A stretch of 64,000 nucleotides of DNA from positions 248,001 through 312,000 of the forward strand of contig NZ_AP024897.1 of the NCBI RefSeq assembly GCF_024529975.1, written 5' to 3'. How positions within the stretch are numbered: position 1 is the first letter of the stretch; every line of letters begins with the position of its first letter. The position numbers were made by a program, and so were the translations under genes. This stretch comes from Vibrio quintilis (GTDB lineage: Bacteria; Pseudomonadota; Gammaproteobacteria; Enterobacterales; Vibrionaceae). Below the pieces are notes generated by a model that saw only the letters and a program-made list of their open reading frames with translations, searched no databases and had not been told where the DNA came from. Positions 4,270 through 23,384 of the stretch are shown here, piece by piece.

Positions 4270-4391
4270 TGTCCAGGGTGTCGTTTTGCACACCGCTTTC
4301 TTTTGCTGGGATAAATCGTTAAGATGTACGGCCTTAAAGGGCAGACCTGCAGTTGCAGGTTTGTGTCGTCAGAAAAAAGAAAAGGTGTATT

Positions 4392-7246: not shown

Positions 7247-7247
7247 A

Positions 7248-7781
7248 ATGAAAGCAATTCCAACTGAAATTGAAGATGTATTCATCATCGAACCTCAGGT
7301 TTTCGGCGATGATCGGGGTTTTTTCTTTGAGAGTTTCAATCATCAGAAATTTGAACAGGCGATTGGCCAGACAGTCGAATTTGTCCAGGACAATCATTCC
7401 CGTTCAATCAGAAATGTGGTCAGAGGACTACATTATCAGGCTGAGCACGCTCAGGGGAAGTTAGTCCGTTGCGTTTTGGGTGAAGTGGTTGATGTTGCCG
7501 TTGATATCCGGAAAGATTCTCCGACGTTTGGCAAAGTGGTTACCGTCAACTTAAGTGCGGAAAATAAACGGCAACTGTGGGTTCCTGCGGGTCTGGCTCA
7601 CGGATTCAGTGTGCTGTCTGATGTGGCTGAGTTTCTTTACAAAACCACAGATTATTATCATCCGGAGTCTGAGCGCTGTATTGCGTGGAATGATCCTGAC
7701 TTGAATGTTGACTGGCAAATCACAGGCGAGCCTCAACTTTCTGAAAAAGATAAGAAAGGTTGTGCTTTCTCATCGATTTAA
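7248..7781 (+). CDS. rfbC: dTDP-4-dehydrorhamnose 3,5-epimerase
   Basis: Third step in the rhamnose pathway, a cupin-fold epimerase. 177 residues with PQVFGDDRGFFFESF at the start, the catalytic histidine in VRGLHYQ, KLVRCVLGEVVDVAVDIR and PAGLAHGFSVLSD. It begins one base after rfbA. Completes the pathway whose product is presumably used by the rhamnosyltransferase candidates in this window. Confidence 0.96.
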   Translation: MKAIPTEIEDVFIIEPQVFGDDRGFFFESFNHQKFEQAIGQTVEFVQDNHSRSIRNVVRGLHYQAEHAQGKLVRCVLGEVVDVAVDIRKDSPTFGKVVTVNLSAENKRQLWVPAGLAHGFSVLSDVAEFLYKTTDYYHPESERCIAWNDPDLNVDWQITGEPQLSEKDKKGCAFSSI

Positions 7782-7832: not shown

Positions 7833-8618
7833 ATGTTGATTTCCGCTCAGTATTTTTCTTTATTTAAATCGATGGTTCGCAGAGAAATTCAGGCAAAGTA
7901 TCAGGGAACTTTGCTTGGTTTTTTGTGGAATCTGGTCACGCCGCTTTTGATGCTGGCGATCTATGCGACGGTGTTTTTGGCTGTATTTAAAGCAAAATGG
8001 CATATGGCCGATCAGGCTCAGGCTGATTATGGATTAATGTTATTTATTGGTATTTTGACGCATGGCTATATGGCTGAGGTACTGACTGCATCAAGCAATG
8101 TCATTCGCAATAATACCAATCTGATTAAAAAAGTTCGCTTTCCGGTTAAAATGTTGCCGCTGGTAACGATTGCCAGTGCGGGTGTGAATTATTTACTCGG
8201 TCTTTGCATGGCTTTCGTTTACGGTTTAGCTCAGGGATATATTCATCAGTTTCAAGGGTTGATTTACCTTCCTCTGATTATCGCAGTTTACGTGGTGACA
8301 CTGACTGCTATCTCCTACCTGGTGGCAGCTCTGGGTGTCTTTCTTCGTGATATTTCTCAGATGATGCCGGTATTAATTACTGTATTATTATTTACCAGTA
8401 CAGTATTCTTCTCGGTTCATTCTGCGCCAGATATGCTGGTGAAAATTATTTATCTGAATCCGATCAGTCCTGTTGCGGATTCGATTCGGGATATTTTATA
8501 TGGATATGCCCCCGACTTTAAACATCTGTTTTGGTTATTTGTTGTAAGCGTGCTGGGGTGTGTTTTTAGTTACAAACTGTTCTGTCGTTTAAGACCTGGT
8601 TTTGCAGATGTCTTATAG
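7833..8618 (+). CDS. wzm: O-antigen ABC transporter permease
   Basis: ABC-2 type membrane subunit that moves undecaprenyl-linked polysaccharide across the inner membrane with the ATPase Wzt. 261 residues, with about six hydrophobic segments and family features near the N-terminus (REIQAKYQGTLLGFLWNLVTPLLM) reported here in part: REIQAKYQGTLLGF. The matching ATPase gene is not adjacent as usual; it lies 12.7 kb downstream at 21332, beyond a type II secretion operon and its putative substrate gene. AGGA lies six to ten bases before the ATG. Confidence 0.92.
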   Translation: MLISAQYFSLFKSMVRREIQAKYQGTLLGFLWNLVTPLLMLAIYATVFLAVFKAKWHMADQAQADYGLMLFIGILTHGYMAEVLTASSNVIRNNTNLIKKVRFPVKMLPLVTIASAGVNYLLGLCMAFVYGLAQGYIHQFQGLIYLPLIIAVYVVTLTAISYLVAALGVFLRDISQMMPVLITVLLFTSTVFFSVHSAPDMLVKIIYLNPISPVADSIRDILYGYAPDFKHLFWLFVVSVLGCVFSYKLFCRLRPGFADVL

Positions 8619-8645
8619 ATCGATTGAAACAGCTGGCGGGGATAT

Positions 8646-10310
8646 ATGCGATTAGGTGAGCTTCTTAAACAAAAACTTCTGATCACCGATGAAGATATCG
8701 ATCAAATATTATTGTTACAGGAAAATGCCAGTATCGGGGAACGAGCCAGATTTGGCGAACTATGTGTTTCCCATGGTTTGTGTTCTGAGCAGGATGTTCT
8801 GCTGGCATTATCAGAACAACTGGAAATACCGGTGCTTGCCGATGTGATTGAGCAGTATTGTGATGGTGATTTGCCTTCGAATGAACTGGCACTGGATATG
8901 TTCCCGGCTGAGTGGTGGCAAAGGCAGCAGGCATATCCCCTTTATCAGAATGATAAAAATGAAATCTATGTCGCTCAGGCAGATATTTGGGACGATTTTA
9001 TTTTCGAAACCATCTTAAGAGAGCATCACCTTCAGGTCATACCGGTACTGAGTTCAAACTACGAACTGAGACAACTGCTCAGTAATGTGGATGAACAACA
9101 GGCGCAAAGTGCAACCCTGAACAGTCAGGAAAGCAGTTCAGCGCCGGTGGTTAAATTTGTTAACGAATGTATTCAGCGGGCGATTAAAGAGAATGCGTCG
9201 GATATTCACTTTGAGGTGAATAAACAACAGTTTCTGGTGCGGTACCGGGTGGATGGTGTACTCCGGACGGTTGACCAGCCGGGGATGGCGCAACATGCAG
9301 CAATTCTTTCAAGAATCAAACTGATGGCCGGGCTGGATATTTCTGAGAAACGTCTGCCGCAGGATGGCCGGATCCGGGTGCGTTTATCCGGGTTACAGGT
9401 CGATATCCGGGTTGCAACCACACCCACAGTTTATGGGGAAAATGCAGTGCTGCGTTTGCTGGCGAATGAACAGCATCATACCTCCCAGCAAGTGAAAGAA
9501 CTGGATATGCTGCCGGATCAAAAAGCCATCATCCAGGAGATTATGCATAAGAAAACGGGGATCTTTTTGATTACCGGTCCGACAGGGAGCGGTAAAACGA
9601 CTTCTCTGTATACGCTCTTAGGTCAGCTGAATGATGAGCAGACCAAAATCATCACCGTTGAAGACCCGGTTGAGTACCAGATGAAAGGGTTGACCCAGAT
9701 TCAGGTTAACAGTGAAATCGGGCTGACTTTTGCCAGCGTTCTGCGTTCTGCGCTTCGTCAGGATCCGGATATTATGCTGATTGGTGAGATGCGGGATAAA
9801 GAAACTGCACAAATTGCGATCCAGTCTTCTTTGACGGGTCACTTTGTTTTATCCACCTTGCACACCAATGATGCGCCAAGCAGTTTCATTCGTTTAAAAG
9901 ATATCGGTATTCCGGATTATCTGATCAAGTCCACTGTGGTCGGCGTTATGGCGCAGCGTCTGGTTCGGCGCTTATGTCCGCATTGCCGGACACCTGATTT
10001 TTCCGGAGAACAAAAGGCGGCTCATCTTGGATTTGCTGAGGTGAATGAGAAGTGGGGCGGTTTACTCGAAAATTCTCCGGTCTGGTATCAGGCGAATGGT
10101 TGTGAGCACTGTAATGAGACCGGATATCATGGTCGTCTGGCTATTTTCGAGCTGTTAGGCTGGTCGGCTGAAGAGACTGCCGAGCTGGAGATGGAAGATT
10201 TACAGGGCGTGGTTGAAAAACAGAAAATGCGGACGCTTAAGCAAGATGCATTACTGCGGGCCGCTCTGGGCGAAACGACACTGGATGAAGTGCTGAGAGT
10301 GGTAGGCTAG
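8646..10310 (+). CDS. gspE: Type II secretion system ATPase GspE
   Basis: Cytoplasmic hexameric ATPase that drives pseudopilus assembly. 554 residues: an N-terminal GspE/MshE-type domain (about 1-150), then the ATPase core with Walker A GPTGSGKTTS around residue 311, Asp box, Walker B region PDIMLIGEMRD around 375, HTNDAPSS (His box) and a metal-binding tetracysteine CPHC (about 442) and CEHC (about 486). First gene of an operon running without large gaps to gspD at 18857. The gene order, E first and D last, differs from the classical C-D-E order. Confidence 0.93.
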   Translation: MRLGELLKQKLLITDEDIDQILLLQENASIGERARFGELCVSHGLCSEQDVLLALSEQLEIPVLADVIEQYCDGDLPSNELALDMFPAEWWQRQQAYPLYQNDKNEIYVAQADIWDDFIFETILREHHLQVIPVLSSNYELRQLLSNVDEQQAQSATLNSQESSSAPVVKFVNECIQRAIKENASDIHFEVNKQQFLVRYRVDGVLRTVDQPGMAQHAAILSRIKLMAGLDISEKRLPQDGRIRVRLSGLQVDIRVATTPTVYGENAVLRLLANEQHHTSQQVKELDMLPDQKAIIQEIMHKKTGIFLITGPTGSGKTTSLYTLLGQLNDEQTKIITVEDPVEYQMKGLTQIQVNSEIGLTFASVLRSALRQDPDIMLIGEMRDKETAQIAIQSSLTGHFVLSTLHTNDAPSSFIRLKDIGIPDYLIKSTVVGVMAQRLVRRLCPHCRTPDFSGEQKAAHLGFAEVNEKWGGLLENSPVWYQANGCEHCNETGYHGRLAIFELLGWSAEETAELEMEDLQGVVEKQKMRTLKQDALLRAALGETTLDEVLRVVG

Positions 10311-10312
10311 TC

Positions 10313-11494
10313 ATGAAACAATTTAAGTTTGTTGCACGACGCAAGGATGGCTCGCTGACAGACGGCTGGATCAGTGCTGACAGTGAACAACAGGCGCGCC
10401 GTATGCTGGCGGAACAGCAGCGGCAGGTGGTGATGCTGACGCCTTTCAAAGCCAAATCCAATAAAAAAGTCAGCCGTGAAGCATTGATCACGACATTACG
10501 TGAACTGGCAACGCTGAGAGAAAGTGGCATGGCGCTCGATCAGTGTATGGCGTCTCTGTATGAGAGTACTGAGGACGACGTATTACGGGTTGCCCTGAAA
10601 CGTTTGCATTATGATGTTGAGAGTGGTTCCAGCCTTTCTGATGCGATTGCCGCACAGCCGGAAGTCTTCCCGTTTTATGCGGCTTCAATGCTCAAGCTGG
10701 GAGAAGCCAGTGGTAAGCTCGGAGAAGCTTTATTCAGTATTTCAGAGCGGATTGAACGCGAAGAGCAACTGGTGAGTGAAGTCAAATCAGCACTGACTTA
10801 TCCGGCTTTTCTGCTCATTGTCTGTGTCGTTGTGCTCTTCTTTATGTTTATGTACGTCATTCCTAACTTTGAGACCATGGTTCAGGATGCCAGAGATGCC
10901 GGCATGCTGGGCAATCTGCTGTCTGTTTCCCGGTTTTTGAATGACAATATTACGGTGATTTCTATCGGACTGGCCGCCTTAGGCGGTGGTCTGTATTACG
11001 GCTTTCGTTATGGCTCTTTATTGCAGTCGCTGATTCAGCTGCTGACCAAAATCCCGATGTTCAGAGAATTAGTTGATGCATGGAATATTGTGCAGTTCTC
11101 AAGCAGTATGCAGCGCTTGCTTGAATCCGGTGTTGAGCTGGTTGAATCTGTGGAAATTACCCGTAACGGGATTTCTGATGAAGTGCTGAGAAAGCGTTTG
11201 GGCTACGTCGTGACCGGGGTCAGGGAAGGGAAAGGACTGGCCGATTCTCTGGGAGAGTTTGATTTATTTCCGTCGATGGTTCGTCGTTTGATTAAAACCG
11301 GGGAGGCGGGTGCATCTTTGGTCCCTTGTTTCCGGGAAATTAACAATTTATATGAAAGACGTTTGTCGAAAGGCTTAAAACGTTTTTTATCGATTTTAGA
11401 GCCGTTGGTGATTGTTGTGATGGGAGGGATCGTCGGCAGTATCATGATCATCCTGATTTCCGGCATTATCTCGGTGAATGATATTAATTTTTAA
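10313..11494 (+). CDS. gspF: Type II secretion inner-membrane platform protein GspF
   Basis: Polytopic platform protein coupling GspE to the pseudopilus. 393 residues with the duplicated T2SSF domain (about 65-190 and 270-390), typical TTLRELATLRESGMALDQCM and KIPMFRELVDAWNIVQFS segments and three long hydrophobic stretches. Starts two bases after gspE. Confidence 0.92.
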   Translation: MKQFKFVARRKDGSLTDGWISADSEQQARRMLAEQQRQVVMLTPFKAKSNKKVSREALITTLRELATLRESGMALDQCMASLYESTEDDVLRVALKRLHYDVESGSSLSDAIAAQPEVFPFYAASMLKLGEASGKLGEALFSISERIEREEQLVSEVKSALTYPAFLLIVCVVVLFFMFMYVIPNFETMVQDARDAGMLGNLLSVSRFLNDNITVISIGLAALGGGLYYGFRYGSLLQSLIQLLTKIPMFRELVDAWNIVQFSSSMQRLLESGVELVESVEITRNGISDEVLRKRLGYVVTGVREGKGLADSLGEFDLFPSMVRRLIKTGEAGASLVPCFREINNLYERRLSKGLKRFLSILEPLVIVVMGGIVGSIMIILISGIISVNDINF

Positions 11495-11510
11495 CGATTT
11501 GAGGATAGTA

Positions 11511-11942
11511 ATGAAAACAACACAAACCACACAATCCAGACAGGATGGTTTTACTTTAATCGAACTGCTTGTTGTTCTTGTTCTGATCTCTTTGCTGGCC
11601 GGACTGGTCGGGCCGAAACTGTTTAAGCAGGTTGGGTCGTCAAAGACAAAAATTGCCAATGCCCAGATTGAGCTGCTGACTTCTGCTTTAAAAACTTATC
11701 GTCTCGATATGGGGAACTATCCAACCACAGAACAGGGTCTGAAAGCGCTGATGGAAGCGCCGGATGATGAGAGTTCTTCGATGTGGAATGGCCCGTATCT
11801 GGCAAAAGACATCCCGTTAGATCCGTGGAATCATGCTTATCACTATAAGTTAAACCCTGATTATGAATTTTCTCTGTACTCTTATGGCCGGGATGACAAA
11901 GAAGGCGGTGACGGAGAAGATCAGGATGTTGGTGTGAAGTAA
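11511..11942 (+). CDS. gspG: Major pseudopilin GspG
   Basis: Major subunit of the pseudopilus. 143 residues with prepilin peptidase site and hydrophobic helix DGFTLIELLVVLVLISLLAG; Glu at +5. The C-terminal half keeps the GspG features TEQGLKALMEAP, DPWNHAYHYK and SLYSYGRDDKEGGDGEDQD (calcium-binding loop region). ATG at 11511 has GAGG six bases upstream and gives a short leader; the frame upstream overlaps gspF and is not likely used. Confidence 0.94.
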   Translation: MKTTQTTQSRQDGFTLIELLVVLVLISLLAGLVGPKLFKQVGSSKTKIANAQIELLTSALKTYRLDMGNYPTTEQGLKALMEAPDDESSSMWNGPYLAKDIPLDPWNHAYHYKLNPDYEFSLYSYGRDDKEGGDGEDQDVGVK

Positions 11943-12358
11943 TGAATCACCATCGGTTGGGAAAGCCATCAGGTTTTACTCTTATCGAATTAATCATTGT
12001 GATTGCTTTGATTGCGTTAATGAGTGCTGTTGTCGTACCAAGACTTTGGGGGAGTTATTCTCAGCTCAAGCAGAAGAAAAAGCTTGAAGCATTCTGGTCT
12101 GAAGTTCGTTCAGAAGCCCTCAAATATAATCAGGCTGGTGAGAGTTTCCTGTTTGATAGTCAACAAGAACAATGGCAGCTGCTGGCTCAAAAGACTCAGC
12201 TGGAAATTCTGCCAAACCACCCGGATGACCAGTTTGTTATCCGGGCTGATGGTTTTACTCAGCATGGTGAAGTGCATTTACTGGTTCTTCCGGAAAAAAT
12301 CAGATGGAAAATCACAATATCGATGCCTGACGGGAGTGTGCATTTTGCCCGTTACTAA
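11942..12358 (+). CDS. gspH: Minor pseudopilin GspH
   Basis: 138 residues; processing site SGFTLIELIIVIALIALM with Glu+5 and a poorly conserved C-terminal domain, as usual for GspH. Its ATG overlaps the gspG stop (TAATG), implying coupled translation. Position directly after gspG identifies it more than its sequence does. Confidence 0.82.
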   Translation: MNHHRLGKPSGFTLIELIIVIALIALMSAVVVPRLWGSYSQLKQKKKLEAFWSEVRSEALKYNQAGESFLFDSQQEQWQLLAQKTQLEILPNHPDDQFVIRADGFTQHGEVHLLVLPEKIRWKITISMPDGSVHFARY

Positions 12359-12761
12359 TCATTTAAAGCGACTCAGAGGGTTCACTTTAATCGAGGTATT
12401 AATTGCGTTAGCCATTTTATCAGCTGGTTTTGCTGTGATTTTTCCCAGCTTTCAGCAAAATATTATCGTGGGTGAAAAAATTCATCAGAGTCAGCTGAAG
12501 ATCATGACAGAGCGCTCTCTTTTTACCAAACTGAGTCAGATTAATCCGGCAAAAAAGCAAAGTGGTCAGGGAAGTTTAGGCGATGTCTATTTTAAATGGC
12601 AGGCTCGCCCAATCAGCCCGTTACTCCAGATGAAAACTGCGGGTGAGCAAATCGAAGAGTATGCACAGATGTATCGGTTTAGTGTGTCATACCATCTCGG
12701 GGGAAAAGATTTCTCATTTGAATTTGAAAAGATGGGCGTGCAGGAGACATTGCGTGGGTAG
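12345..12761 (+). CDS. gspI: Minor pseudopilin GspI
   Basis: About 138 residues with RGFTLIEVLIALAILSAGFA at the N-terminus, the most conserved GspI feature. No ATG is available close to the processing site. TTG at 12345 is preferred (GGGAG eight bases upstream); GTG at 12336 is the alternative. It overlaps the end of gspH, so its translation probably depends on ribosomes finishing gspH. Confidence 0.8.
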   Translation: MPVTNHLKRLRGFTLIEVLIALAILSAGFAVIFPSFQQNIIVGEKIHQSQLKIMTERSLFTKLSQINPAKKQSGQGSLGDVYFKWQARPISPLLQMKTAGEQIEEYAQMYRFSVSYHLGGKDFSFEFEKMGVQETLRG

Positions 12762-13458
12762 GAAGCGCACACTATCTGGCTTTACTTTAGTTGAAATGCT
12801 GGTGTCGCTGGCTATTTTTTCTGCTGTACTGTCGATCGTCATCTCCGGGCTGCATCAGGGGCAAGTTCAGTGGGAACAAGGGGCCCGGCAATTGGATCAG
12901 GCTGATTATATGATGAAGCGGCAATCCTGGCTCCGGCAGTTATTTGCTCAGGCTAATACAGCAACCTTTCGGATTACTTATGGAATGGAAGCGCCCTATT
13001 TTAACGGAAATGAACAAAGCCTGTCTTTTATTTCCGATGCTCCGATTATTTCCGGGCCGGGAACTTATGCAACTGTCAGGCTGGAGCTGCTCCCGCAGGA
13101 TAACGGGCTGTTTGAGCTTACTTTTACTCAGAAGCCTTATAGTGACCCTTATCTAAATCCCGAAGCCGATCTGAGTGATGGGGCATCACTGGTTTTATTA
13201 GAGGATATCCAAAGCTTGTCGTGGAAATATTTTCTGGCTGCGCGGACGGAGGCAACGCCAATGGAGATTACCTACAACAGGTTCACACCGCGCCCGGAGG
13301 GCTATTGGGATGATGAATATGATGCTAATTTTGAACAGGCCTTACCACAATATGTTCAGATGAATTTCAAGATAAAGAACCATCAGTATGTCTGGTATTT
13401 TGAGCTACCGGTGAAGCCTTTAGCGTTAATTCAGGAGTCTCAGATTGTTGTTAATTAA
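12754..13458 (+). CDS. gspJ: Minor pseudopilin GspJ
   Basis: 234 residues with SGFTLVEMLVSLAIFSAVLS after a short basic leader. Starts with GTG at 12754, GGAG seven bases upstream, overlapping the last bases of gspI. Length fits GspJ, which with GspI and GspK forms the pseudopilus tip. Confidence 0.85.
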   Translation: MGRKRTLSGFTLVEMLVSLAIFSAVLSIVISGLHQGQVQWEQGARQLDQADYMMKRQSWLRQLFAQANTATFRITYGMEAPYFNGNEQSLSFISDAPIISGPGTYATVRLELLPQDNGLFELTFTQKPYSDPYLNPEADLSDGASLVLLEDIQSLSWKYFLAARTEATPMEITYNRFTPRPEGYWDDEYDANFEQALPQYVQMNFKIKNHQYVWYFELPVKPLALIQESQIVVN

Positions 13459-14422
13459 GTCCGGAAATATAAAACAGTCCGGGGCCATTTTACCGCTGAC
13501 ACTCATTATACTGGCTGTTTTAACTGTGCTGGTAGGATCTCTGTTATCCCGGGGACAGGAACAGGCCGATAAAACGCTTCGCTTGAATAAGCAGTGGCAG
13601 GCTCGCCTGGCGATCAATAATGCTGAGCAACGGGTACTGTTTGCTATGATGGTCGGCGATCAGCTTCCCGGAGGCTATCAGCTTGGAGAGACATTACTCC
13701 TGACTGATTCAAGCAATACAAAACTCTCGAATAATGTTTGGGTGTCTATTCAGGATCATGCTGGATTAGTCAGTTTGAGCTTTATTGATAAAAGTGCGCT
13801 AACTGAGTTAATTCGTAGCTATATTGATGGTCCGGATTCAATCCGAATTGCCCAGTCTGTAATCGACTGGCAGTTGCCGGTAAAAGATGCGCCGTTTTTA
13901 TTTCAGGGTTCTGAAGGGCAGGCTTTGCCCCGTAATTCACCTTTCAGAAGTCTTGATGAGTTGATGCTTATTCCGGGGATTACCAGCCAAATTTATAATG
14001 GCAAAAGAAATCTGGCAGAAGAAGAAAATCCGGATAGTGATGAAAAAGAGTCATCTGAATGGCCAAAATTTGGACTTCGGGATTTATTGAGTGTCCGGGC
14101 TGCAGAGTCAGATGGGATTAATTTTTCTTCAGTACCGGATGCGATATTATCAAGGGTCTATCATGTCACGCCTTATAATCTGGATGTATTAAGACGGATG
14201 AAAAAAAGAGGAAACTGGACCGGCGTACGCCGCTTTTTAGCCAGTAATAATATTTCAACAGGGTCGGCGGATAGTGTTCCCAGTAGCTTTTATACCATTC
14301 GTTTTCAATATCAGGGAATTCAGGCTCGCGGAATTTACCGGGTGCTGCCGCGTATGCTTCCAACACCAAGGTTAATATGGTATTTTCCGGACAATTTCAG
14401 ATACTTCTCTCAATTAAAGTAA
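13445..14422 (+). CDS. gspK: Minor pseudopilin GspK
   Basis: 325 residues. N-terminal SGAILPLTLIILAVLTVLVG is a prepilin-like helix lacking Glu+5, which is the hallmark of GspK. The large periplasmic domain contains FRSLDELMLIPGIT, a helix-hairpin-helix-like segment seen in the family. Begins with TTG (GGAG seven bases upstream) and overlaps gspJ. Confidence 0.85.
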   Translation: MLLIKSGNIKQSGAILPLTLIILAVLTVLVGSLLSRGQEQADKTLRLNKQWQARLAINNAEQRVLFAMMVGDQLPGGYQLGETLLLTDSSNTKLSNNVWVSIQDHAGLVSLSFIDKSALTELIRSYIDGPDSIRIAQSVIDWQLPVKDAPFLFQGSEGQALPRNSPFRSLDELMLIPGITSQIYNGKRNLAEEENPDSDEKESSEWPKFGLRDLLSVRAAESDGINFSSVPDAILSRVYHVTPYNLDVLRRMKKRGNWTGVRRFLASNNISTGSADSVPSSFYTIRFQYQGIQARGIYRVLPRMLPTPRLIWYFPDNFRYFSQLK

Positions 14423-14437
14423 TAAACAGGTGTCATA

Positions 14438-15553
14438 GTGATTCATAAAATCCAGCGGCAATGGTGTATATGGCCAGAAGGAAGCCTTCAGGGAACAGAA
14501 CCAGAAGGCAGAGTTTCTCGCTGGGATAAAGTTGTCGGACTTATCCCTCAGTCCCGGTGTCTGTTTAAAATCTTTTATTACAATATTGAACTGATCCCAC
14601 AAAAAGATCTGGAACAATGTGTTGAGAACGAAATCTCACAGCTGACAAGCTGGAATAACCCTCACTGTTTTTTTCTGGTGAATAAAGTTGATGAAAACTG
14701 GCAGGTGATTACCTGGGTATGGGATGATGACCAGATTCAGTTTGGTTGTCCGGTTACACATAAACTTCCTGCACTTGCTTACTTTTTGGGCAGAACCAGA
14801 GCCTCCCAGGGTATTCTGTATTATTCCGAAGCTGTCAATGACAGCTCCGCTCAGGCGTGGGCCATTACCTGGAAAAATGTTTCTGTTGTTGAGCATTTGT
14901 ATCCGATGAATTCTCCGATTCATGCCCGGGTCATCAAACAGCTTTTAGATGACGAACAGGAAAGCATGTCGCTTTACTCGAATCTTGAAGATGTTTCATT
15001 GTTAGATGGATATCCGGTGAAACCGCTTCATCATCATGTCAAATCTAAAGTGATGACCAAGGCGAAATGTTCTGCACAGTTAGAGTTTGATAATCCATGG
15101 ATTTACTGGCGAACAATGCTCTGGGCGCTGTGTCTCTTTTGTGTGTATTTAGTCGCTGATGCCTCATTGTTGAAGTATGAACAGAGCCACTTTTCTGAGC
15201 TTGTGTCTCAGAAGCAGCAGACAACATTAAGTATCCAGAATCAACGTTCCCGCTATGAAGATAACAAGCGATTTGTCGAGCAGGCGATGCTGGCCAAAGA
15301 GAAACAGCAGTTTATCGCCATACTATTAGAAGAGTTGACAACAAAACTGGCAAAAGATGTCATGATTACCAAATTGACTTATGATCAGAAAAGCATACTG
15401 CTTGAAGGAACGGTACAGAATTCTACCGGCGTCTTGGAATCATTATCGAATATCTCATTTGTGAAAGAAGCACGTTTACTGGGGGAGGTTGTTCCGACCG
15501 GAAATGAGCGGCAGAAATTCAGAGCAGAAGTGTCACTCAGGGAGTTGAAGTAA
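14438..15553 (+). CDS. gspL: Type II secretion assembly protein GspL-like
   Basis: 371 residues: a cytoplasmic actin-like domain (about 1-215), one transmembrane helix around residues 222-240 (MLWALCLFCVYLVADASLL) and a periplasmic ferredoxin-like part. GspL recruits GspE to the membrane. Sequence similarity is not obvious by eye; identity rests on size, topology and position between gspK and gspM. GTG start at 14438. Confidence 0.75.
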   Translation: MIHKIQRQWCIWPEGSLQGTEPEGRVSRWDKVVGLIPQSRCLFKIFYYNIELIPQKDLEQCVENEISQLTSWNNPHCFFLVNKVDENWQVITWVWDDDQIQFGCPVTHKLPALAYFLGRTRASQGILYYSEAVNDSSAQAWAITWKNVSVVEHLYPMNSPIHARVIKQLLDDEQESMSLYSNLEDVSLLDGYPVKPLHHHVKSKVMTKAKCSAQLEFDNPWIYWRTMLWALCLFCVYLVADASLLKYEQSHFSELVSQKQQTTLSIQNQRSRYEDNKRFVEQAMLAKEKQQFIAILLEELTTKLAKDVMITKLTYDQKSILLEGTVQNSTGVLESLSNISFVKEARLLGEVVPTGNERQKFRAEVSLRELK

Positions 15554-16188
15554 TGGACGATTTTTTACAATCCCTGAGAGATGGTCAGTGGAAAGAAGAG
15601 TTATCCAGCCCACTTGTTCAATGGGGGGGATTAGTGTGTGTGTTGATTTTCTTATGGTGGGTTGGTGTCGGACCATATTATGAATGGCGGGCTGAGGTTA
15701 AATCCCGAATCGATCAGCAATATGTACGCCTGTCCAGATTACAGGTATTAGAAAACAGCCGGGAAAATATCCGGACTGAAACGAATCACTTAAACAAACA
15801 ACTTGCTGTTGCAAAAGCTGAATTACTCAAAGAAAGAACTCAAAGCCGGGCAATTTCAGCTCAGGTTGACCGTTTTGAAGATGTTTATAAGCCACATGGT
15901 CTAAAGCTGAAAGGGCGTCTGTTTGGTGAACCTGATGTCATTCCTTATCTGGGTGAAAAAGTTGAGTCGCGCTGGCGTTTACTGGGGAAAACCGATGATA
16001 TTCTGGCAATGCTTTATGACTTAGCTCATGCGAAGACTCTGATGGTTCCGGTATCTGTTCAGATCAAAAAATCGACAGAAAGGCGTCGGGGGCGTAAGAA
16101 CAGTGAAAATGCTCCTGATTACGAAATATCAATGACACTCAACAGTTATCGTTTACTCCCGATGAAAGATATAAAAAGACGTAAGTGA
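15553..16188 (+). CDS. gspM: Type II secretion assembly protein GspM-like
   Basis: 211 residues: short cytoplasmic tail, one transmembrane helix around 25-45 (WGGLVCVLIFLWWVGVGPYY), coiled coil about 50-110 and a small C-terminal periplasmic domain ending in a very basic tail. Its ATG overlaps the gspL stop. Partner of GspL in the inner-membrane platform. Confidence 0.75.
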   Translation: MDDFLQSLRDGQWKEELSSPLVQWGGLVCVLIFLWWVGVGPYYEWRAEVKSRIDQQYVRLSRLQVLENSRENIRTETNHLNKQLAVAKAELLKERTQSRAISAQVDRFEDVYKPHGLKLKGRLFGEPDVIPYLGEKVESRWRLLGKTDDILAMLYDLAHAKTLMVPVSVQIKKSTERRRGRKNSENAPDYEISMTLNSYRLLPMKDIKRRK

Positions 16189-16190
16189 CT

Positions 16191-16682
16191 ATGAATCAGA
16201 GACCTTTAATTCCTCATCCAAAGTTAATGATTTCCTTTGCCGGAGTGCTGTTATTACATCTTGTATTTACTTATCTGTCATTGTCTTATGTCGATGGTAA
16301 CGATAAAGTAATTCAGCTCTCTCCAGTCAGAGAATCTGGAACTCCGCCAGCGATAGCGCCTTCCGGGAATATTTTTTCTTTGGATCGGGTCATTGCCATT
16401 TCATCTGATGAGCAGGAAACGAAAGAGAAAAAAGAGGAGTCGGATGATTATCAGTTAGGGAGTATTGTGCGTGAAGGCAATCAAATGAAAGCTGTATTTA
16501 TTAGTAATGATAAGAGAGTCATTCTCGGCGTTGGCGAAAACTTGCCTCATACAGGCAAGGTGACACAGATTAAAGATAATTTAGTGACGACTCAGAGTGA
16601 TAATGGTGATATTCGTCACTGGCAGCTTTTCCCAACTTTTAACCCGGTTAAACAATCAGGAACGACAGGAACTAAAGATTAA
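16191..16682 (+). CDS. GspC-like inner-membrane linker (short form)
   Basis: 163 residues: an N-terminal membrane helix (about 12-32), a Pro/Ser and acidic linker, then a domain at about 95-155 (QLGSIVREGNQMKAVFISN and IKDNLVTTQSDNGDIRHWQL) resembling the GspC homology region that contacts the secretin N0 domain. No PDZ or coiled-coil domain follows, so it is shorter than classical GspC. GTG at 16185, overlapping the gspM stop, is an alternative start. Its place just before the secretin gene supports the role. Confidence 0.65.
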   Translation: MNQRPLIPHPKLMISFAGVLLLHLVFTYLSLSYVDGNDKVIQLSPVRESGTPPAIAPSGNIFSLDRVIAISSDEQETKEKKEESDDYQLGSIVREGNQMKAVFISNDKRVILGVGENLPHTGKVTQIKDNLVTTQSDNGDIRHWQLFPTFNPVKQSGTTGTKD

Positions 16683-18857
16683 ATGAGCAGAGTTATGATG
16701 AAACATCAACGCCATATCTTACGTGCTACCGTAATATTTGGGGCTAGTGTTATGTTTGGTTGCGCGAATTTTCAGCCGCTTCCCAAAGATGTAACTCCGG
16801 CTCCGGCGAAACTATCCAGTGAGAGTACGCCTGATAATCTGGCATTTGATAGCCACAAGACCAAAAATGATGAAGGCAACCTTAAAAATGGCGATTATGC
16901 TGAGTTTAAAATCAGGGATATAAAAAAAGCGCCTGTATTACAGATAGGGACTCAGCATGAACAGATGGCTGGGTTAAAGTTACCTGAAGAACCTGTGAGT
17001 TTGAATGCTGATAGTTTACCGCTTCAACATTTCATTAACCTGGCTTTGGGGGATGTTTTAAAACTGAGTTATCTGATTGATTCTGATTTAGAAAAGAAGA
17101 AGACAAAGATTACCCTGAGAGTGAATAAGCCTGTGACGGCTAAACGACTATTAGGGCTGGTGGAAGAAGCATTGCAGGTCAATGGTGTTGCTTTGGCTCA
17201 GGATGATGATCTCATTAAGGTAATTCCATCTTCAAAGGCAAGTAGTGCTGCGCCGGTGATGATGCAGGAATCTGTGAAACCTTTATTACGTTATGGAAAA
17301 GTGACAGAGATTATTCCGGTTTATTATATGGGAGTCAGTCAGGCTTCTTCGCTGGCGACGAAGTTATTCAGAGAAGGCCGGGGTGGTTCGGTTTTGATGC
17401 AGCCTCATCTCAGTTCTTTGATGGTGGTTGCTGTGCCTGATGATATTGAAAAATTTCGTGTATTGCTGAAGCAGCTGGATGTACCAAATAGTGTGTCCGA
17501 TTATATGTCCTTAGTTTCTCCCCGTTTTTTAACTGCTGGTAGCCTTGCCAGTCAGCTACAGGTCGCATTAAATGCTGCTTCTATCCCTGTTTCGGTCAGT
17601 GGGGGGTTGAACGGTGTTATTTTGAAAGTATTAAACAACGAGCAACTGATAATGACGTCAAATTCAAAAAACTGGCTGAATTATGCAGAAAATTGGGTTA
17701 AGCGGCTGGATATACCACCAAAAACCGAAGCAGAACATAAAGGTATCTATGTTTATTATATGAAAAACACCAAAGCGAAAGATACCTGGGGCGTTGTAAA
17801 AACTATTTTTAGTGATGGGAAAAGTAGTCGTACGAAAACCTCTGAAGTTGCCTCCCAGAATATTTTGGCATCCTCACAGCAACAAAATCAACGCTCAGTC
17901 ACATCTTCTGTTCAGGGAATTACCCCCGGAAATACGGGGATGAAGCAACGCCGTACAACAACAACAGAGACGATGAGTGTTGTCGGTAAAAATTATAAGG
18001 TCGTAGTTGATGATGATCGCAATGCGTTAATATTTCAGGGATCCTATCAGAATTATCAGCAACTGGTTGATTTGTTAGCTTATGTTGATAAGCGTCCCAG
18101 ACAAGTATTACTGAAAGCGACCATTGCTGAAGTTAGTTTAACTGATGCCTATAGTCTGGGGCTGGATTGGACCGATGGTGGTAAAAGTTCTGATGTGACA
18201 GGAAGTACCAGCGTGACACCGAGCGATGCTTCGAGTTATTTGAGTCTTACTGGTCTTTTCGGTGATTTTACCGCTAAGTTTAACGCATTGTTATCCAATG
18301 GTAAGGTCCAGGTACTGTCCAGCCCTAAAATATTAGCTCTGGATGGTGAGTCGGCTTCGATTGATATTGGTCAGCAGATTCAGGTGATTACCGGATCAGT
18401 CTCCGGAACCGATAGTGATTCTACTGTGACAAATACATATAGTTACATTAGTACTGGCGTCCAGCTCAACATCACGCCTTATATTAATGAAAGTGGATTG
18501 GTTCAGCTCGATATTAGCCAGGAAGTCAGCACCGCCGGAGAATCTACTTCGGGGAGTCCTCCGATTAACACGCGTTCTCTTCAGACCAGCTTTCTGGCCG
18601 ATACTGGTGAGACAGTTTATATTGGCGGGTTGATAAAAACACGTAATGAAGATACAGAACAAAAAGTGCCAGTTTTAGGTGATATTCCGCTATTAGGCAA
18701 TTTATTTACATATAAGAGTACGGCACAAACTTCGACAGAGTTGATCCTGTTAATTACCCCCTATGTGATTAAAAGTCAGGAAGAGGCTTTACTGTATACT
18801 AAAAGTTTCAGTAAAATCACAGGCTGGACTCTGTCTCCGGATATGTTGGAAAAATAG
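16683..18857 (+). CDS. gspD: Type II secretion outer-membrane secretin GspD, probable lipoprotein
   Basis: 724 residues. Signal peptide ends ASVMFGCANFQ, a plausible lipobox with Ala at +2 (outer-membrane sorting). N0 domain about 95-185, N1-N3 repeats about 200-480, then the secretin domain: VQVLSSPKILALDGESASI, GVQLNITPYIN, ETVYIGGLIKT and the signature VPVLGDIPLLGNLF. A Ser/Gln/Thr-rich stretch near 380-425 interrupts N3. A lipid-anchored secretin (as in the Hxc system of Pseudomonas) would not need a separate pilotin, and none is seen here. Last gene of the operon. Confidence 0.9.
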   Translation: MSRVMMKHQRHILRATVIFGASVMFGCANFQPLPKDVTPAPAKLSSESTPDNLAFDSHKTKNDEGNLKNGDYAEFKIRDIKKAPVLQIGTQHEQMAGLKLPEEPVSLNADSLPLQHFINLALGDVLKLSYLIDSDLEKKKTKITLRVNKPVTAKRLLGLVEEALQVNGVALAQDDDLIKVIPSSKASSAAPVMMQESVKPLLRYGKVTEIIPVYYMGVSQASSLATKLFREGRGGSVLMQPHLSSLMVVAVPDDIEKFRVLLKQLDVPNSVSDYMSLVSPRFLTAGSLASQLQVALNAASIPVSVSGGLNGVILKVLNNEQLIMTSNSKNWLNYAENWVKRLDIPPKTEAEHKGIYVYYMKNTKAKDTWGVVKTIFSDGKSSRTKTSEVASQNILASSQQQNQRSVTSSVQGITPGNTGMKQRRTTTTETMSVVGKNYKVVVDDDRNALIFQGSYQNYQQLVDLLAYVDKRPRQVLLKATIAEVSLTDAYSLGLDWTDGGKSSDVTGSTSVTPSDASSYLSLTGLFGDFTAKFNALLSNGKVQVLSSPKILALDGESASIDIGQQIQVITGSVSGTDSDSTVTNTYSYISTGVQLNITPYINESGLVQLDISQEVSTAGESTSGSPPINTRSLQTSFLADTGETVYIGGLIKTRNEDTEQKVPVLGDIPLLGNLFTYKSTAQTSTELILLITPYVIKSQEEALLYTKSFSKITGWTLSPDMLEK

Positions 18858-19236
18858 TCTTTCAAGGGTGTTTTTTTAGACTAGAATATTAGATCATGTG
18901 TCGAATTATTGGCATAGTTCGATAAGTGGGCAATTTTGTGAAAGTATTATTTTGTGTGATCAATGTCATTGTTTGGAAGTGATGTTTTCATAATTAAGCA
19001 GAATTTGTCCATTGACAAGTGCTTATTTTGTCTCGAAAATAGCACTTGCGCACTTCGGAGCGCGATCATTAATCAATGCCTGGGTTTTCTTTTTATTTTT
19101 TGGTTTAGCGGCCGAAATAATAAAAAGTTGGCATGGTGCTAAGAATAGTGCACCGAAGTTGATCAAATTGGCTGACGTATATATGTTTATGTTGGTTAAA
19201 AAAACAATGTGGATCCAAAACAAGGATATAAATAAC
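18858..19236 (+). promoter_or_regulatory. Promoter and long leader of the putative S-layer gene
   Basis: 379 bases without a credible gene. Candidates: a CRP-like half-palindrome at 18955-18970 (TGTGA, 6 bases, TCATT) upstream of a CATAAT hexamer at 18989-18994; a TTGACA at 19012-19017 with GAAAAT 17 bases later; and an inverted repeat at 19016-19048 (arms CAAGTGC..TATTTT and AAAATAGCACTTG, 6-base loop, one bulge). The inverted repeat overlaps the TTGACA promoter candidate, so it is either an operator or, if transcription starts at the upstream hexamer, a 5' mRNA hairpin. AAGGA at 19222-19226 precedes the start codon. Confidence 0.45.
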
Positions 19237-21165
19237 ATGTTAAAGAAAACTCTAATTGCTGCAGCTGTAGCTACTGTAACAGCAACACCAGCTTTTGCTG
19301 ATATCAGCTTGACTTATGGTGGTTTGCCTACAAACACTGCAACTGATATGACAACAACAACATTAGCGACTGTGACTAAGTCTAGTGTTCTGTCTTATTC
19401 GACTGCTGAAGAAGAGATTGCTACTATTTTCGGTGTTGATGGTGATTTAAAGCAAAACGGTTTTATCACTTTGCAATTGACCGGCGGTGCTACATTTAAC
19501 GAATCTGAAGTCAACCAATGGTTAACGGTTGCTGGTGCTGGTGCTGATGTTGATGCAATTTTAGCTGATCCGGCTAACCAAACTCAGTCTATCAGTATTG
19601 AGCTTCTGCTTGCGTCAACTCTTGCTGCTGATGGTGTGATCAAGACTACAGGTGGCACGCCAACTGCTGCAGATCTGAATGATGTGTTTAAATTTACTAA
19701 CACAGGTACACAGCAATACACTATCGAGCACGATATTGATGAAGATGGTACTCGTTTGCGTCTGGCTTTGAAACAAACTACCGGCACTACCAATGAGATG
19801 ATTCGTGTTGGAGCTACTACTGCTGTAACTGACGCTGATGTTGATACAGCTGCGATTGCTACCACAAACGTTGCTGATACGTGGGCGGCTTTACCTGCTT
19901 CTATTACTGGTGCCACTTTAGCTGTTATTGGTCAAGCTGGCTATGATGGTGCGGCTGATGAAACGGCTCGTGTTGCTTACCTGAGAACAGAAACTAACAC
20001 GACCACAGCTGGTCTTATCGATGATTACCTTGAAGGTATCGCTGGTGTGTATGCTGGTACAAATGAAACTTTAGTTGGTGCTGGTACAGTTGTTAACTTC
20101 AATTTACCAGAAGCAAACCAAATCTTTAATCTAGCTGGAACTTCAGGCAACGTATTCATGAAAATCGGCGCTCTGAAAAATGCATCTTATTCAGCTGATC
20201 CAGTATCAACAGCTGCTCTGTTCAAACTAGGTGATTTGTTTGAATTAACATTGACAGACTCTGGTACAGCTACAGCTCTTGTTTCGGAAGGTTTCCTGGC
20301 ATATGACACAGGTACAGACCGGGTCGCTGATGATGAAGATGTTGAAGCAGATACCTTAGATCTGAAAAACAGAACTTCTAACCAAAACCTTCAGTTAAAT
20401 AAAGTGAACTTATCTTTAACTGGTGATATGACAGCGTTCCGTGTAGATGCTGATGGTGATTTGATCCTGAAGGATGGAACTGAAACTGGTTGGACTGTTA
20501 ATTCTGATAAGACTGGTGCAACGGCTACTTTGGCATCTGACGTTTTGGAAGGTGTAGCTTCTCTGGATGCAAGCGCTCGTGGAGTGAGTACAGCTCAAAA
20601 TACTGCATGGACGAATTTAGGTAAAATCTACGTTCAAGCATCAGATAACACTACTCCAATCCCAGCTCAGTCAATTAGTGTAACAGCTTCTATTGATGGT
20701 GATGATCAGGCTACGTTTGATGATTTCTCAGATACAATCAGCAATCTGTTTGTTTTCACTCGTGATGGCATGAAGTTTGATACTATCCTGACTGGTACAA
20801 CTTCTGCGAACACTATTCATATTCGTGATATTTCTGGCACTTTACCTGAAGCTGGCGGTAAGATTTATGTGACAGTTTGGGAATACGACGCACATGCTGC
20901 TGGTGAAAGTGCAGAAAGCACTGTACTGGCTGATCGTCAGGTTATTTCTGTAACTCTGCCATCAAAAGGTGCTGTAACTCTGAACCCTGCAACTATCGCA
21001 GAGCAACTGGGTATCACTGTGAATCCTGGTCGTCAGGCACGTATGGTGTTTGAAGTTGAAACGAACCAAGGTGAAGTGGCTGTTAAGAAGAAAGACAGCA
21101 GCGGTATCGATATCCAAAACGGTACAAAAGGTGTTCACACCAACGTTGTTGACTTCACTCTGTAA
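19237..21165 (+). CDS. Putative S-layer protein, probable substrate of the adjacent type II secretion system
   Basis: 642 residues. Cleavable signal peptide MLKKTLIAAAVATVTATPAF (cleavage expected after Ala21), no cysteine anywhere, strongly acidic, rich in Thr, Ala, Asp and Val, with beta-strand-like composition and no recognised catalytic motif. Codon choice is restricted (GCT, GGT, AAC, CTG favoured), as in highly expressed genes. It has its own long leader and a strong terminator, and sits between gspD and wzt. These are the properties of secreted S-layer subunits such as Aeromonas VapA and the Pseudoalteromonas SLR4 type, which are linked to type II secretion genes; homology to either has not been tested. 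A frame from 19012 would add a non-signal N-terminus and is rejected. Alternative: another abundant secreted structural protein. Confidence 0.7.
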   Translation: MLKKTLIAAAVATVTATPAFADISLTYGGLPTNTATDMTTTTLATVTKSSVLSYSTAEEEIATIFGVDGDLKQNGFITLQLTGGATFNESEVNQWLTVAGAGADVDAILADPANQTQSISIELLLASTLAADGVIKTTGGTPTAADLNDVFKFTNTGTQQYTIEHDIDEDGTRLRLALKQTTGTTNEMIRVGATTAVTDADVDTAAIATTNVADTWAALPASITGATLAVIGQAGYDGAADETARVAYLRTETNTTTAGLIDDYLEGIAGVYAGTNETLVGAGTVVNFNLPEANQIFNLAGTSGNVFMKIGALKNASYSADPVSTAALFKLGDLFELTLTDSGTATALVSEGFLAYDTGTDRVADDEDVEADTLDLKNRTSNQNLQLNKVNLSLTGDMTAFRVDADGDLILKDGTETGWTVNSDKTGATATLASDVLEGVASLDASARGVSTAQNTAWTNLGKIYVQASDNTTPIPAQSISVTASIDGDDQATFDDFSDTISNLFVFTRDGMKFDTILTGTTSANTIHIRDISGTLPEAGGKIYVTVWEYDAHAAGESAESTVLADRQVISVTLPSKGAVTLNPATIAEQLGITVNPGRQARMVFEVETNQGEVAVKKKDSSGIDIQNGTKGVHTNVVDFTL

Positions 21166-21202
21166 TCATTCTGATTACAGACAACAAGTTAATATAAATG
21201 AC

Positions 21203-21232
21203 AAAGGAGCCCATAGGGCTCCTTTATTTTTA
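21203..21232 (+). terminator. Rho-independent terminator of the putative S-layer gene
   Basis: AAAGGAGCCC, ATA loop, exact 10-base complement, then ATTTTTAT. It isolates the S-layer gene from wzt. Confidence 0.9.
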
Positions 21233-21331
21233 TCACACTGTTAAATCATGTATTTTCTTCTGTGCGTTTTTTGCATCTTTACTGTTTTTTCCTCATAATA
21301 TTCCCCCTTTCTGTATGATAACGAAGTAGCC

Positions 21332-22648
21332 GTGATTACTGTCGAGCAAATCAATAAAAGCTTTTCTTTAGCTGCATCCCCATGGCAACGCTTGCGGGAT
21401 ACTGTCTGGCCGCAAAAATCCGGACCCCGTTTTCAGGCCCTGAAAAATATCAGCTTTATCGCAAGATCTGGAGAAACACTGGGTATTGTTGGTCACAATG
21501 GCAGTGGTAAATCGACTTTATTACAAATTATTAGTGGTGTGCTTTCAGCTGATTCTGGTCACATTCAGGTCGAGGGGCGTATTGCTGCATTGCTGGAACT
21601 TGGTTCTGGTTTTAATCCTGAATTTACCGGCAGACAGAATGTTTACTTTAATGCGCAGCTTTTAGGCTTATCTCAGCAGCAGGTTGATGAAAAGCTGGCG
21701 GATATTCTGGCATTTGCCGATATCGGAGATTTTATTGAGCAACCTGTAAAGTGTTATTCCAGTGGGATGATGTTACGACTTGCCTTTTCGGTCGTCATGC
21801 ACATTGACCCGGATATCCTGATTGTGGATGAAGCATTGGCGGTTGGCGATGATGCCTTTCAGCGTAAATGTCATGCCAAATTAAAGCAGTTACAATCCCG
21901 GGGTGTCACTTTGTTATTTGTGTCTCACTCTGCGGGTCAGGTGATTGAACTATGTGACAGAGCGATTTTACTGGACCATGGTGAATTATTAATGGAAGGC
22001 TCCCCGAAAGACGTCGTACAGCAGTATCATAAATTACTTCACTTACATGGCCCGGAAAGGAATGAATACCGGGAGATGATACAGCGTGGTTTGGCGCAAT
22101 CAAAAGCCGCAAAAGATGAAGCGGTGGATTCACGGAAAGAAAGAGCAGCATCAGGAACATTTGATCCGTCACTTCAGCCTGCGTCCAGCGTATGGTATCA
22201 AAGCCAGGGCGCACAAATTTCAGATCCGCATATCGAAAATATCAATCAAGAGCGGGTTAATTTGCTGACGGCAGGGGATGATTATGACTATGTTTACCGT
22301 ATTCATTTTGACTCAGAAGCATTTGAAGTCGGGGCCGGGATGATGATTAAAACCGTCTCGGGCTTCGAATTAGCCGGAGGCACTTCGATTCGTGATCATC
22401 AATTGAGAATTCCGTATGTGGCTGCCGGACAAAAAGTTGAAATGCGTTTTCGTTTTACCTGTCAGTTGCCAAATGGCAGTTATTTTCTGAACTGCGGTTG
22501 CTCTGCACTCGTTGAGGGTGAAAGACGTTTTCTCCATCGTGGTGTTGATGCTGCCATGTTTACGGTGATGGAGCAAAGCACGCATATGACCGGTGCCGTA
22601 GATATAATCCAATCTATTTGTAGTAAAGTGATTCATGAAACGTCCTAA
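21332..22648 (+). CDS. wzt: O-antigen ABC transporter ATPase with C-terminal carbohydrate-binding domain
   Basis: 438 residues. Nucleotide-binding domain: Walker A GHNGSGKST (54-62), signature YSSGMMLRLAF (about 142), Walker B ILIVDEALAVGDD (about 163). The extra C-terminal domain (about 270-425; DYDYVYRIHF, GAGMMIKTVSGFELAG, NGSYFLNCGCSAL) is typical of Wzt proteins that recognise the finished polysaccharide end before export. GTG start at 21332. It should pair with Wzm encoded at 7833; the two genes are separated by the secretion operon and the S-layer candidate. Confidence 0.93.
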   Translation: MITVEQINKSFSLAASPWQRLRDTVWPQKSGPRFQALKNISFIARSGETLGIVGHNGSGKSTLLQIISGVLSADSGHIQVEGRIAALLELGSGFNPEFTGRQNVYFNAQLLGLSQQQVDEKLADILAFADIGDFIEQPVKCYSSGMMLRLAFSVVMHIDPDILIVDEALAVGDDAFQRKCHAKLKQLQSRGVTLLFVSHSAGQVIELCDRAILLDHGELLMEGSPKDVVQQYHKLLHLHGPERNEYREMIQRGLAQSKAAKDEAVDSRKERAASGTFDPSLQPASSVWYQSQGAQISDPHIENINQERVNLLTAGDDYDYVYRIHFDSEAFEVGAGMMIKTVSGFELAGGTSIRDHQLRIPYVAAGQKVEMRFRFTCQLPNGSYFLNCGCSALVEGERRFLHRGVDAAMFTVMEQSTHMTGAVDIIQSICSKVIHETS

Positions 22649-23384
22649 TCTGTTTATTCTTGGTGGGCAAAAATGTGGCACCACAGCACTGGCTCATTTT
22701 CTTGGGCAGCATCCGGAAATTTTTATCGCTGAGGGAAAAGAAGCCCATATTTTTGATCATCCTGAGATAGAACCTTCTGACCATCAACAGCTTGATAGTG
22801 CATACTGTCACTTCTTCCGGGAAGGTCAGTCACAAAACTATTATTGCGATGCGACGCCAATTTATAGTTACTGGACTGATTTGCTGCCTTTCATCGCGGA
22901 TTATAGCCCCGATGCAAAAATTATTTTTATGGTCAGAGATCCGGTTGAACGGGCCGTATCACAATACATGATGGAAAGTAACAGAGGTTATGAGCGATTA
23001 CCCATGCTTCAGGCTTTTCTTAAAGAGCCTGAGCGCTTGTTGCAGGCTCAGCAAAACAGAAAGGAATGGATGTCTCCTTCCCGCTGGGCATCCTATTTGG
23101 ATCGGGGGTATTTTCAGCAACAGCTGGATGTGATTCGCTCCGTTTTTTCTGAAGATCGGCTGTTGATACTACATAATGATGATTTGCGCCATTGTCATGA
23201 TGATACACTCAGCCGGGTCTATCAATTCCTGCATGTTGAGTATTTAAAAACAGAACCCAAAACTGTATTTTCGGGAAATTACCGGAAAAAAACGATGCTT
23301 GATTATCTGGCCCGGCGATATGCCCGCTGGAAATTGAAAGATGAAATACAGTTTGTGCGCCAGTTTCGTCAATCCAACGATTAA
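22635..23384 (+). CDS. Sulfotransferase family protein
   Basis: 249 residues. PAPS-binding loop GGQKCGTTAL (10-19) and the 3'-phosphate loop VRDPVERAVSQYM (about 99-111) identify a sulfotransferase fold. Overlaps the end of wzt by 14 bases, so it is co-translated with the O-antigen exporter. Likely acceptor is a polysaccharide or glycolipid, but nothing in the sequence identifies it. Confidence 0.85.
   Translation: MKRPNLFILGGQKCGTTALAHFLGQHPEIFIAEGKEAHIFDHPEIEPSDHQQLDSAYCHFFREGQSQNYYCDATPIYSYWTDLLPFIADYSPDAKIIFMVRDPVERAVSQYMMESNRGYERLPMLQAFLKEPERLLQAQQNRKEWMSPSRWASYLDRGYFQQQLDVIRSVFSEDRLLILHNDDLRHCHDDTLSRVYQFLHVEYLKTEPKTVFSGNYRKKTMLDYLARRYARWKLKDEIQFVRQFRQSND

Follow-up and report, generated by a model that had tools for sequence, protein, structure and literature searches.

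A probable VapA-type S-layer locus with its own type II secretion genes in an O-antigen cluster of Vibrio quintilis

A 64-kb stretch of the Vibrio quintilis genome (RefSeq assembly GCF_024529975.1, contig NZ_AP024897.1, positions 248,001 to 312,000), referred to here as the window, appears to contain a VapA-type surface (S-) layer locus, of the type known from the Aeromonas A-layer, equipped with a dedicated type II secretion system (T2SS) and a presumed O-polysaccharide anchor; we put the probability of this reading at about 0.92. The window sits on a 4.1-Mb contig of a 5.85-Mb genome, and the genes of the locus all lie on the forward strand in the order rmlB-D-A-C, wzm, spsE-F-G-H-I-J-K-L-M-N-D, vapA, wzt, sulf1 and a gene at the position of 'WbbB' (Table 1). 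The wzm and wzt genes of an ABC-transporter O-antigen cluster enclose the secretion genes followed by vapA, and this is the organization of an Aeromonas-type S-layer/O-antigen locus.

A first-pass annotation, made from the sequence alone, had drawn attention to the separation of wzm and wzt by 12.7 kb; the distance is 12,713 bp, and it is indeed unusual. As a control we used the Wzt_C domain, for which 44 of 329 Vibrionaceae genomes have a match (47 matches in total, by our count of those listed). There are 41 matches in 39 VapA-negative genomes, from which 39 were taken, with G161 and G167 left out, and five of these 39 control stretches are shortened by contig ends (one, L083, extends only about 650 bases past wzt). 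In all 39 loci wzm abuts wzt on the same strand.

The S-layer gene and its dedicated secretion system

Against the curated equivalog NF050048 (VapA family S-layer protein), for which the cut-off is 200 bits, the product of vapA scores 807.5 bits (E 5.7e-243), in an alignment that places residues 1-642 of the protein on positions 1-526 of the profile and spans the entire protein. Its homologues are named as S-layer or VapA proteins, the closest named VapA relative being that of V. aerogenes (72% identity). The first-pass annotation had proposed this protein as an S-layer candidate on account of its being secreted, cysteine-free, acidic and rich in threonine and alanine, and both the proposal and the description hold: the signal peptide is MLKKTLIAAAVATVTATPAFA, with the cleavage site placed by eye, and the mature protein contains no cysteine, has a pI of 4.12 and consists of 14.8% Thr and 12.2% Ala.

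The V. aerogenes protein (12.7 nm) and a V. quintilis protein of 642 aa (12.2 nm) have been predicted to form p4 lattices, and are listed together with measured tetragonal lattices of 12.1 and 12.5 nm for Aeromonas salmonicida VapA (Table 1 of PMC11410804); the V. quintilis protein modelled there is probably this VapA or a relative, judging by the equal length. In V. rotiferianus DAT722, VapA was identified among the outer-membrane proteins from a gel band (PMC3262767). Our literature search found no description of a Vibrio S-layer locus, and for Vibrio VapA the accessible parts of these two sources give only the modelled lattice and the gel band respectively.

The strong expression signals noted at first pass stand in part. 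Among the 18 genes measured, codon bias is most pronounced in vapA, with an effective number of codons of 40.2 (the others range from 45.9 to 59.3; spsH, spsI and spsJ were left out), and a terminator-like hairpin follows the gene, but promoter-like matches around it are no more frequent than chance would give (5 observed, 5.3 expected). The case for strong expression of vapA is therefore made by codon bias and not by promoter motifs.

The sps genes encode a secretin, an ATPase, a GspF-type protein and both major and minor pseudopilins. Profiles recognize spsE, spsF, spsG and spsD clearly and spsM and spsK weakly, and spsH, spsI and spsJ carry the pseudopilin motif; profile searches gave no match over a cut-off for SpsL and no credible match for SpsN. 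Homologues of all of the Sps genes except N are found by tblastn, in the same order, in each of the eight other VapA loci for which the T2SS side is available, and spsN homologues in four of the eight. The genome encodes five further secretins, so that Sps is one of several secretin systems in this organism.

Table 1. Features of the S-layer/O-antigen locus (window coordinates)
Feature	Position	Strand	Evidence
rmlB, rmlD, rmlA, rmlC: dTDP-rhamnose synthesis	4353..7781	+	Pfam
wzm: ABC-2 O-polysaccharide exporter membrane subunit, intact, 261 aa	7833..8618	+	PF01061 (ABC2_membrane), E 5.3e-24
spsE: GspE-type ATPase, MshEN domain	8646..10310	+	profile matches
spsF: GspF-type inner-membrane protein	10313..11494	+	profile matches
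spsG: major pseudopilin	11478..11942	+	TIGR01710 over cut-off
spsH: minor pseudopilin	11942..12358	+	N_methyl motif
spsI: minor pseudopilin, start codon uncertain	12354..12761	+	N_methyl motif in ORF 12024-12761
spsJ: minor pseudopilin, start codon uncertain	12763..13458	+	N_methyl motif in ORF 12643-13458
spsK: divergent GspK	13445..14422	+	NF037980 E 2.7e-7, below cut-off
spsL	14438..15553	+	assigned by position and homologues in syntenic loci
spsM: XpsM-type GspM	15553..16188	+	NF040576 E 1.7e-12, below cut-off
spsN (Orf2): 165 aa; one N-terminal membrane segment, HR-like region (by eye)	16185..16682	+	
spsD: secretin	16683..18857	+	PF00263 E 4.5e-47; TIGR02517 341 bits (cut-off 351)
vapA: S-layer protein precursor, 642 aa	19237..21165	+	NF050048 807.5 bits
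Terminator-like hairpin 3' of vapA: 10 pairs, then T-rich tail	21203..21225	+	
wzt: exporter ATPase with C-terminal cap-reading domain (Wzt_C), 438 aa	21332..22648	+	PF00005 (ABC_tran) and PF14524, E 2.6e-23
sulf1: stand-alone sulfotransferase	22635..23384	+	PF13469/PF00685
'WbbB'-position protein, 1043 aa: N-terminal sulfotransferase (sulf2), long helix (residues 279-412), two GT2 modules	23396..26527	+	

VapA loci in related genomes

NF050048 was searched for in 329 Vibrionaceae genomes, an order-wide sample of 394 and 75 Aeromonadaceae genomes, and was found in five of the first (including that of the window), in seven of the second (six over the cut-off, the window's own among these) and in four of the third, three of which had already been counted in the other samples. 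Over the cut-off there are 11 VapA-positive genomes from six genera, and we take the ten besides V. quintilis to be V. aerogenes, V. rotiferianus, Salinivibrio ES.052, Photobacterium aquae, two Motilimonas, three Oceanimonas and A. salmonicida.

The neighbourhoods of all 11 loci were compared, ten by tblastn and that of the window directly. The order vapA, wzt, sulf1 is present in every one, and the parts are therefore not found unlinked in relatives. The upstream side of A. salmonicida and of Oceanimonas CHS3-5 cannot be judged because their contigs end near vapA, and in seven of the remaining nine loci, window included, wzm lies directly 5' of spsE and wzt directly 3' of vapA. V. aerogenes has the entire locus in the same order as the window, and the order is also kept in V. 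rotiferianus CAIM 577. The two rearranged loci are those of Motilimonas E26, in which the T2SS block is inverted, and P. aquae, in which wzm lies beyond sulf1 and a second wzt (L087) stands upstream of spsE, with no wzm in the 13 kb of sequence covered there. In the two Oceanimonas loci with upstream sequence, the rml side is represented by one weak RmlB-like match (26% identity, downstream) in one locus only.

The layout itself is known from fish-associated Aeromonas. A. salmonicida A450 has an intact wzm, the T2SS genes, vapA, wzt, a gene for a sulfotransferase-domain protein and 'WbbB' within an rml O-antigen cluster, in the same order as here, with the four rml genes likewise at the head of the cluster and with a Wzt of 438 aa in both; in-frame mutants there lacked the A-layer when the gene affected was vapA, and the O-antigen when it was rmlB, wzt, wbbB or gtf-2 (PMC4483657). 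It differs from V. quintilis in the length of VapA (502 versus 642 aa) and in the wecB, gtf-2, atf-3 and wbbL genes, which are not present directly downstream in the window. In A. hydrophila AH-1 (O11), the S-layer T2SS and vapA are likewise inserted in an rml/wzm/wzt O-antigen cluster, with an Orf2 of 166 aa at the spsN position, although there a truncated wzm lies upstream and a complete wzm-wzt pair downstream (PMC4413209). The ops octamer GGCGGTAG, reported for both Aeromonas clusters (PMC4483657; PMC4413209), has no exact match in the 64-kb window, where exact matches alone were sought; the octamer does not belong to the S-layer genes proper. The Slr4 gene of Pseudoalteromonas, another marine gammaproteobacterium, also lies directly downstream of a T2SS operon, but belongs to a separate, newly named family according to the description given for it (PMC7821379). 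The idea of one locus for exporter, S-layer and O-antigen, put forward at first pass, is thus supported but not new in kind, since it has been published for A. salmonicida A450 (PMC4483657) and, in a form with a broken wzm, for A. hydrophila AH-1 (PMC4413209); the observation was right, and for the most part so was its interpretation.

Several neighbouring features were recorded in the window. Directly after the locus lies a gene for a 512-aa lipoprotein without a Pfam match (26766-28304), homologues of which adjoin rml genes in V. rotiferianus and Salinivibrio. The left flank carries, on the minus strand, genes for a UDP-sugar dehydrogenase and an epimerase (811-3026), and the right flank, also on the minus strand, a weak glycosyltransferase match and a Glycos_transf_4 (WecA-type) gene (28411-30427). 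Further away are a selenocysteine tRNA gene (37440-37530), a C4 antisense RNA (61225-61310) that may mark a prophage, this RNA family being one of P1/P7-like phages, and a minus-strand match to a Group II intron (63858-63934), close to the end of the window.

Wzt and the linked sulfotransferase genes

The first-pass annotation ended the unit at wzt, but two sulfotransferase-type sequences downstream of it, sulf1 and the N-terminus of the 'WbbB'-position protein (sulf2), appear to belong to it as well. A sulf1 homologue follows wzt in all ten other VapA loci (42-68% identity to sulf1 of the window), and in all 11 it begins within 14 bp of the wzt end (by ORF coordinates, with a later ATG taken in M. 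pumila and O. smirnovii). Profiles of sulf1 and sulf2 were built from the VapA loci. That of sulf1 gave nothing beyond one 16-bit match in the 39 VapA-negative Wzt_C loci and the second wzt locus of P. aquae. In whole genomes, it matches all five VapA-positive Vibrionaceae at E 2.1e-70 or better, and among the 324 VapA-negative ones it finds weak matches in five (E 8e-11 to 3e-19) and none at E 1e-10 in the other 319. Residues G10, K13, G15 and T16, and R101 and S109, are invariant in the 11 sulf1 rows, as are R24, S25, G26 and T27, and R145 and S153, in ten sulf2 rows (aligned-block numbering in both cases); we take these motifs, which are of the type that binds 3'-phosphoadenosine 5'-phosphosulfate (PAPS), to be the 5'-phosphosulfate-binding loop and the 3'-phosphate-binding R..S motif.

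The N-terminus of the 'WbbB'-position protein matches PF13469 over the cut-off, and its 45 best VIA-align rows are sulfotransferases, on the assumption that the Teg12/Teg14 rows among them count as such. In a model of residues 1-460, a sulfotransferase fold extends to about residue 270 and is followed by a single helix of 134 residues (279-412), after which come the GT2 modules. An identity as WbbB proper, a beta-Kdo transferase terminator, was rejected, the N-terminal residues being those of a PF13469 sulfotransferase instead of a Kdo transferase. In ABC-dependent O-polysaccharide systems, a terminator domain on a coiled-coil ruler ends the chains, and the carbohydrate-binding module of Wzt exports capped chains only; Klebsiella O12 WbbB and E. 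coli/Klebsiella WbdD carry the terminator at one end of a coiled coil, with polymerase modules at, or recruited to, the other, together with a cap-reading Wzt (PMC11231755). The sulf2-helix architecture fits this scheme, with helix pairing and chain ending as predictions of the model, although the Klebsiella and E. coli terminators add Kdo or methyl/phosphomethyl groups (PMC11231755), whereas a sulfotransferase-like domain occupies that place here. In the accessible part of the A. salmonicida study the sulfotransferase is left unexplained, and the WbbB N-terminus, which has a sulfotransferase fold here, is called a capsule-biosynthesis domain (PMC4483657).

The Wzt of the window has the C-terminal carbohydrate-binding module expected of a partner to such a terminator. 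In a tree of 51 Wzt sequences, the 11 VapA-linked Wzts from six genera form one clade (support 100/99), and the group is recovered from either part of the protein taken separately, with an SH-aLRT of 99 for the ATPase part and 96 for the C-terminal part; as the VapA-negative sequences are all from Vibrionaceae, the test has less force where Aeromonas is concerned. This clade is nested in a 20-row group (100/100) with all eight sulf2-linked VapA-negative Wzts and the second Wzt of P. aquae, which places just outside it. Wzt class tracks sulf2 in 19 of the 20 rows, the exception being that second Wzt, which has no sulf2 in the 13 kb covered; such a pattern would follow from the reading of a sulfated end by Wzt_C, and within the sulf2-linked group the VapA-linked subclade has the additional sulf1. 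The C-terminal domains of the Wzts in the VapA group share a mean identity of 0.56 with one another, 0.34 with those of the sulf2-only Wzts and 0.17 with the rest. The behaviour of Wzm is not clearly like that of Wzt, as the VapA-linked Wzms were grouped together in 0 of 200 bootstrap trees, although the AU p is 0.057.

Sulfate-related genes were also seen near two other VapA loci. Between wzm and sulf1 of P. aquae lies a sulfatase gene (L031:10194-11801; PF00884, E 2.5e-46), placing a sulfate-removing enzyme beside a sulfate-adding one; this was the locus in which sulfatases were searched for. Downstream of the V. rotiferianus locus (L034:9376-14102 and 15393-16157) are cysD, an SLC13-like transporter gene, cysC, cysN and a further sulfotransferase-like gene, all named by eye.

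Alternative readings and implications

In the S-layer reading that we favour, VapA would leave the cytoplasm by means of its Sec signal peptide, would be exported through SpsE-D with the help of a prepilin peptidase from elsewhere in the genome, and would assemble on the cell as a two-dimensional lattice. The rml, wzm, wzt, sulf1 and 'WbbB' genes would make an ABC-transporter-exported O-polysaccharide, the presumed anchor, and sulf1 may alter the chain end as needed for S-layer binding or for matching Wzt.

Several observations weigh against this reading or its extension to a sulfated anchor. VapA is rare in the Vibrionaceae, the 11 loci are not independent tests because of their shared ancestry, two of the nine that can be judged are rearranged, and a structure search with VapA gave no convincing whole-chain match. 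The T2SS had been called full at first pass; components E to N and D are there, with K weak, but the locus holds no prepilin peptidase gene (gspO) and no GspC recognizable by profile, and SpsE, SpsF and SpsD exceed Pfam cut-offs but fall below those of the curated GspE, GspF and GspD equivalogs. The genome has three Peptidase_A24 loci, all outside the window, and SpsN is a possible substitute for GspC, which it resembles in size, position and a single membrane segment only. As to sulfate, neither A. salmonicida 'WbbB' nor the P. aquae sulf2 ORF reaches PF13469 at E 0.001 in Pfam, and the A. salmonicida O-antigen seems to lack sulfate in the published account (PMC4483657), although an end-group sulfate could easily escape notice. 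The ORF table for A. hydrophila AH-1, which has vapA, contains no separate sulfotransferase (PMC4413209). Finally, sulf1 homologues with 37-54% identity are present in Alteromonadales, V. metschnikovii, P. leiognathi, A. veronii and A. dhakensis, among the 120 listed of 138 matches at E 1e-20.

That the 642-residue protein is a T2SS-exported exoenzyme or adhesin and no S-layer subunit strikes us as barely credible. Its AlphaFold2 model is beta-strand-rich (mean pLDDT 83.3), no relative was found among solved structures by sequence, and most of the weak Foldseek matches, at TM 0.1-0.25, are Ig-like adhesins or comparable beta proteins, which would suit an adhesin; the whole-length equivalog match, the lack of any Pfam domain, the strong codon bias and the tetragonal lattice measured for A. 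salmonicida VapA (PMC11410804) all argue the other way. It is also improbable that sulf1 acts on VapA, for instance by tyrosine sulfation before export, rather than on polysaccharide: after the bacterial sulfotransferase 3rnl, the closest solved chains are the glycan-directed heparan-sulfate 3-O/N-sulfotransferases, sulf1 begins 14 bp before wzt ends, with the terminator and wzt standing between it and vapA, and sulf2 is found without VapA.

As to anchoring, we propose tentatively, and as less likely than not, that the non-reducing O-polysaccharide end is sulfated by the sulf2-long-helix terminator and sulf1, that a dedicated Wzt carbohydrate-binding domain checks it before export, and that VapA binds it. 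The repeat units could then vary by species with the cap remaining constant, which would explain the joint travel of vapA, wzt and sulf1 and the splitting of wzm from wzt. A somewhat less than even chance attaches to simple hitch-hiking, by which the S-layer genes would sit in a recombining polysaccharide island and wzt, sulf1 and sulf2 would be ordinary O-antigen genes without an S-layer role. The shared ancestry of the loci, the report of AH-1 and the sulf1 homologues in species of unseen S-layer status are all in keeping with this, as is the presence of sulf2 beside wzt in eight of the 39 VapA-negative loci. Against hitch-hiking stand the single Wzt clade across six genera, the higher identity of its C-terminal domains to each other (56%) than to those of VapA-negative Vibrionaceae (34% where sulf2-linked, 17% otherwise), and the retention of vapA-wzt-sulf1 in Motilimonas E26 and P. 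aquae despite rearrangement elsewhere in the locus.

In summary, this locus extends a system known from Aeromonas to Vibrio, and its vapA-wzt-sulf1 core is found also in Salinivibrio, Photobacterium, Motilimonas and Oceanimonas; what is new here is the vapA-linked association of wzt with sulf1 and the testable idea of a sulfated anchor. If true, a sulfated cap would show by what means O-polysaccharide tethers an S-layer exported by a T2SS, would give a role to a gene that has stood without explanation in A. salmonicida since 2015, and would suggest a chain-termination chemistry beyond those named for Klebsiella (PMC11231755).

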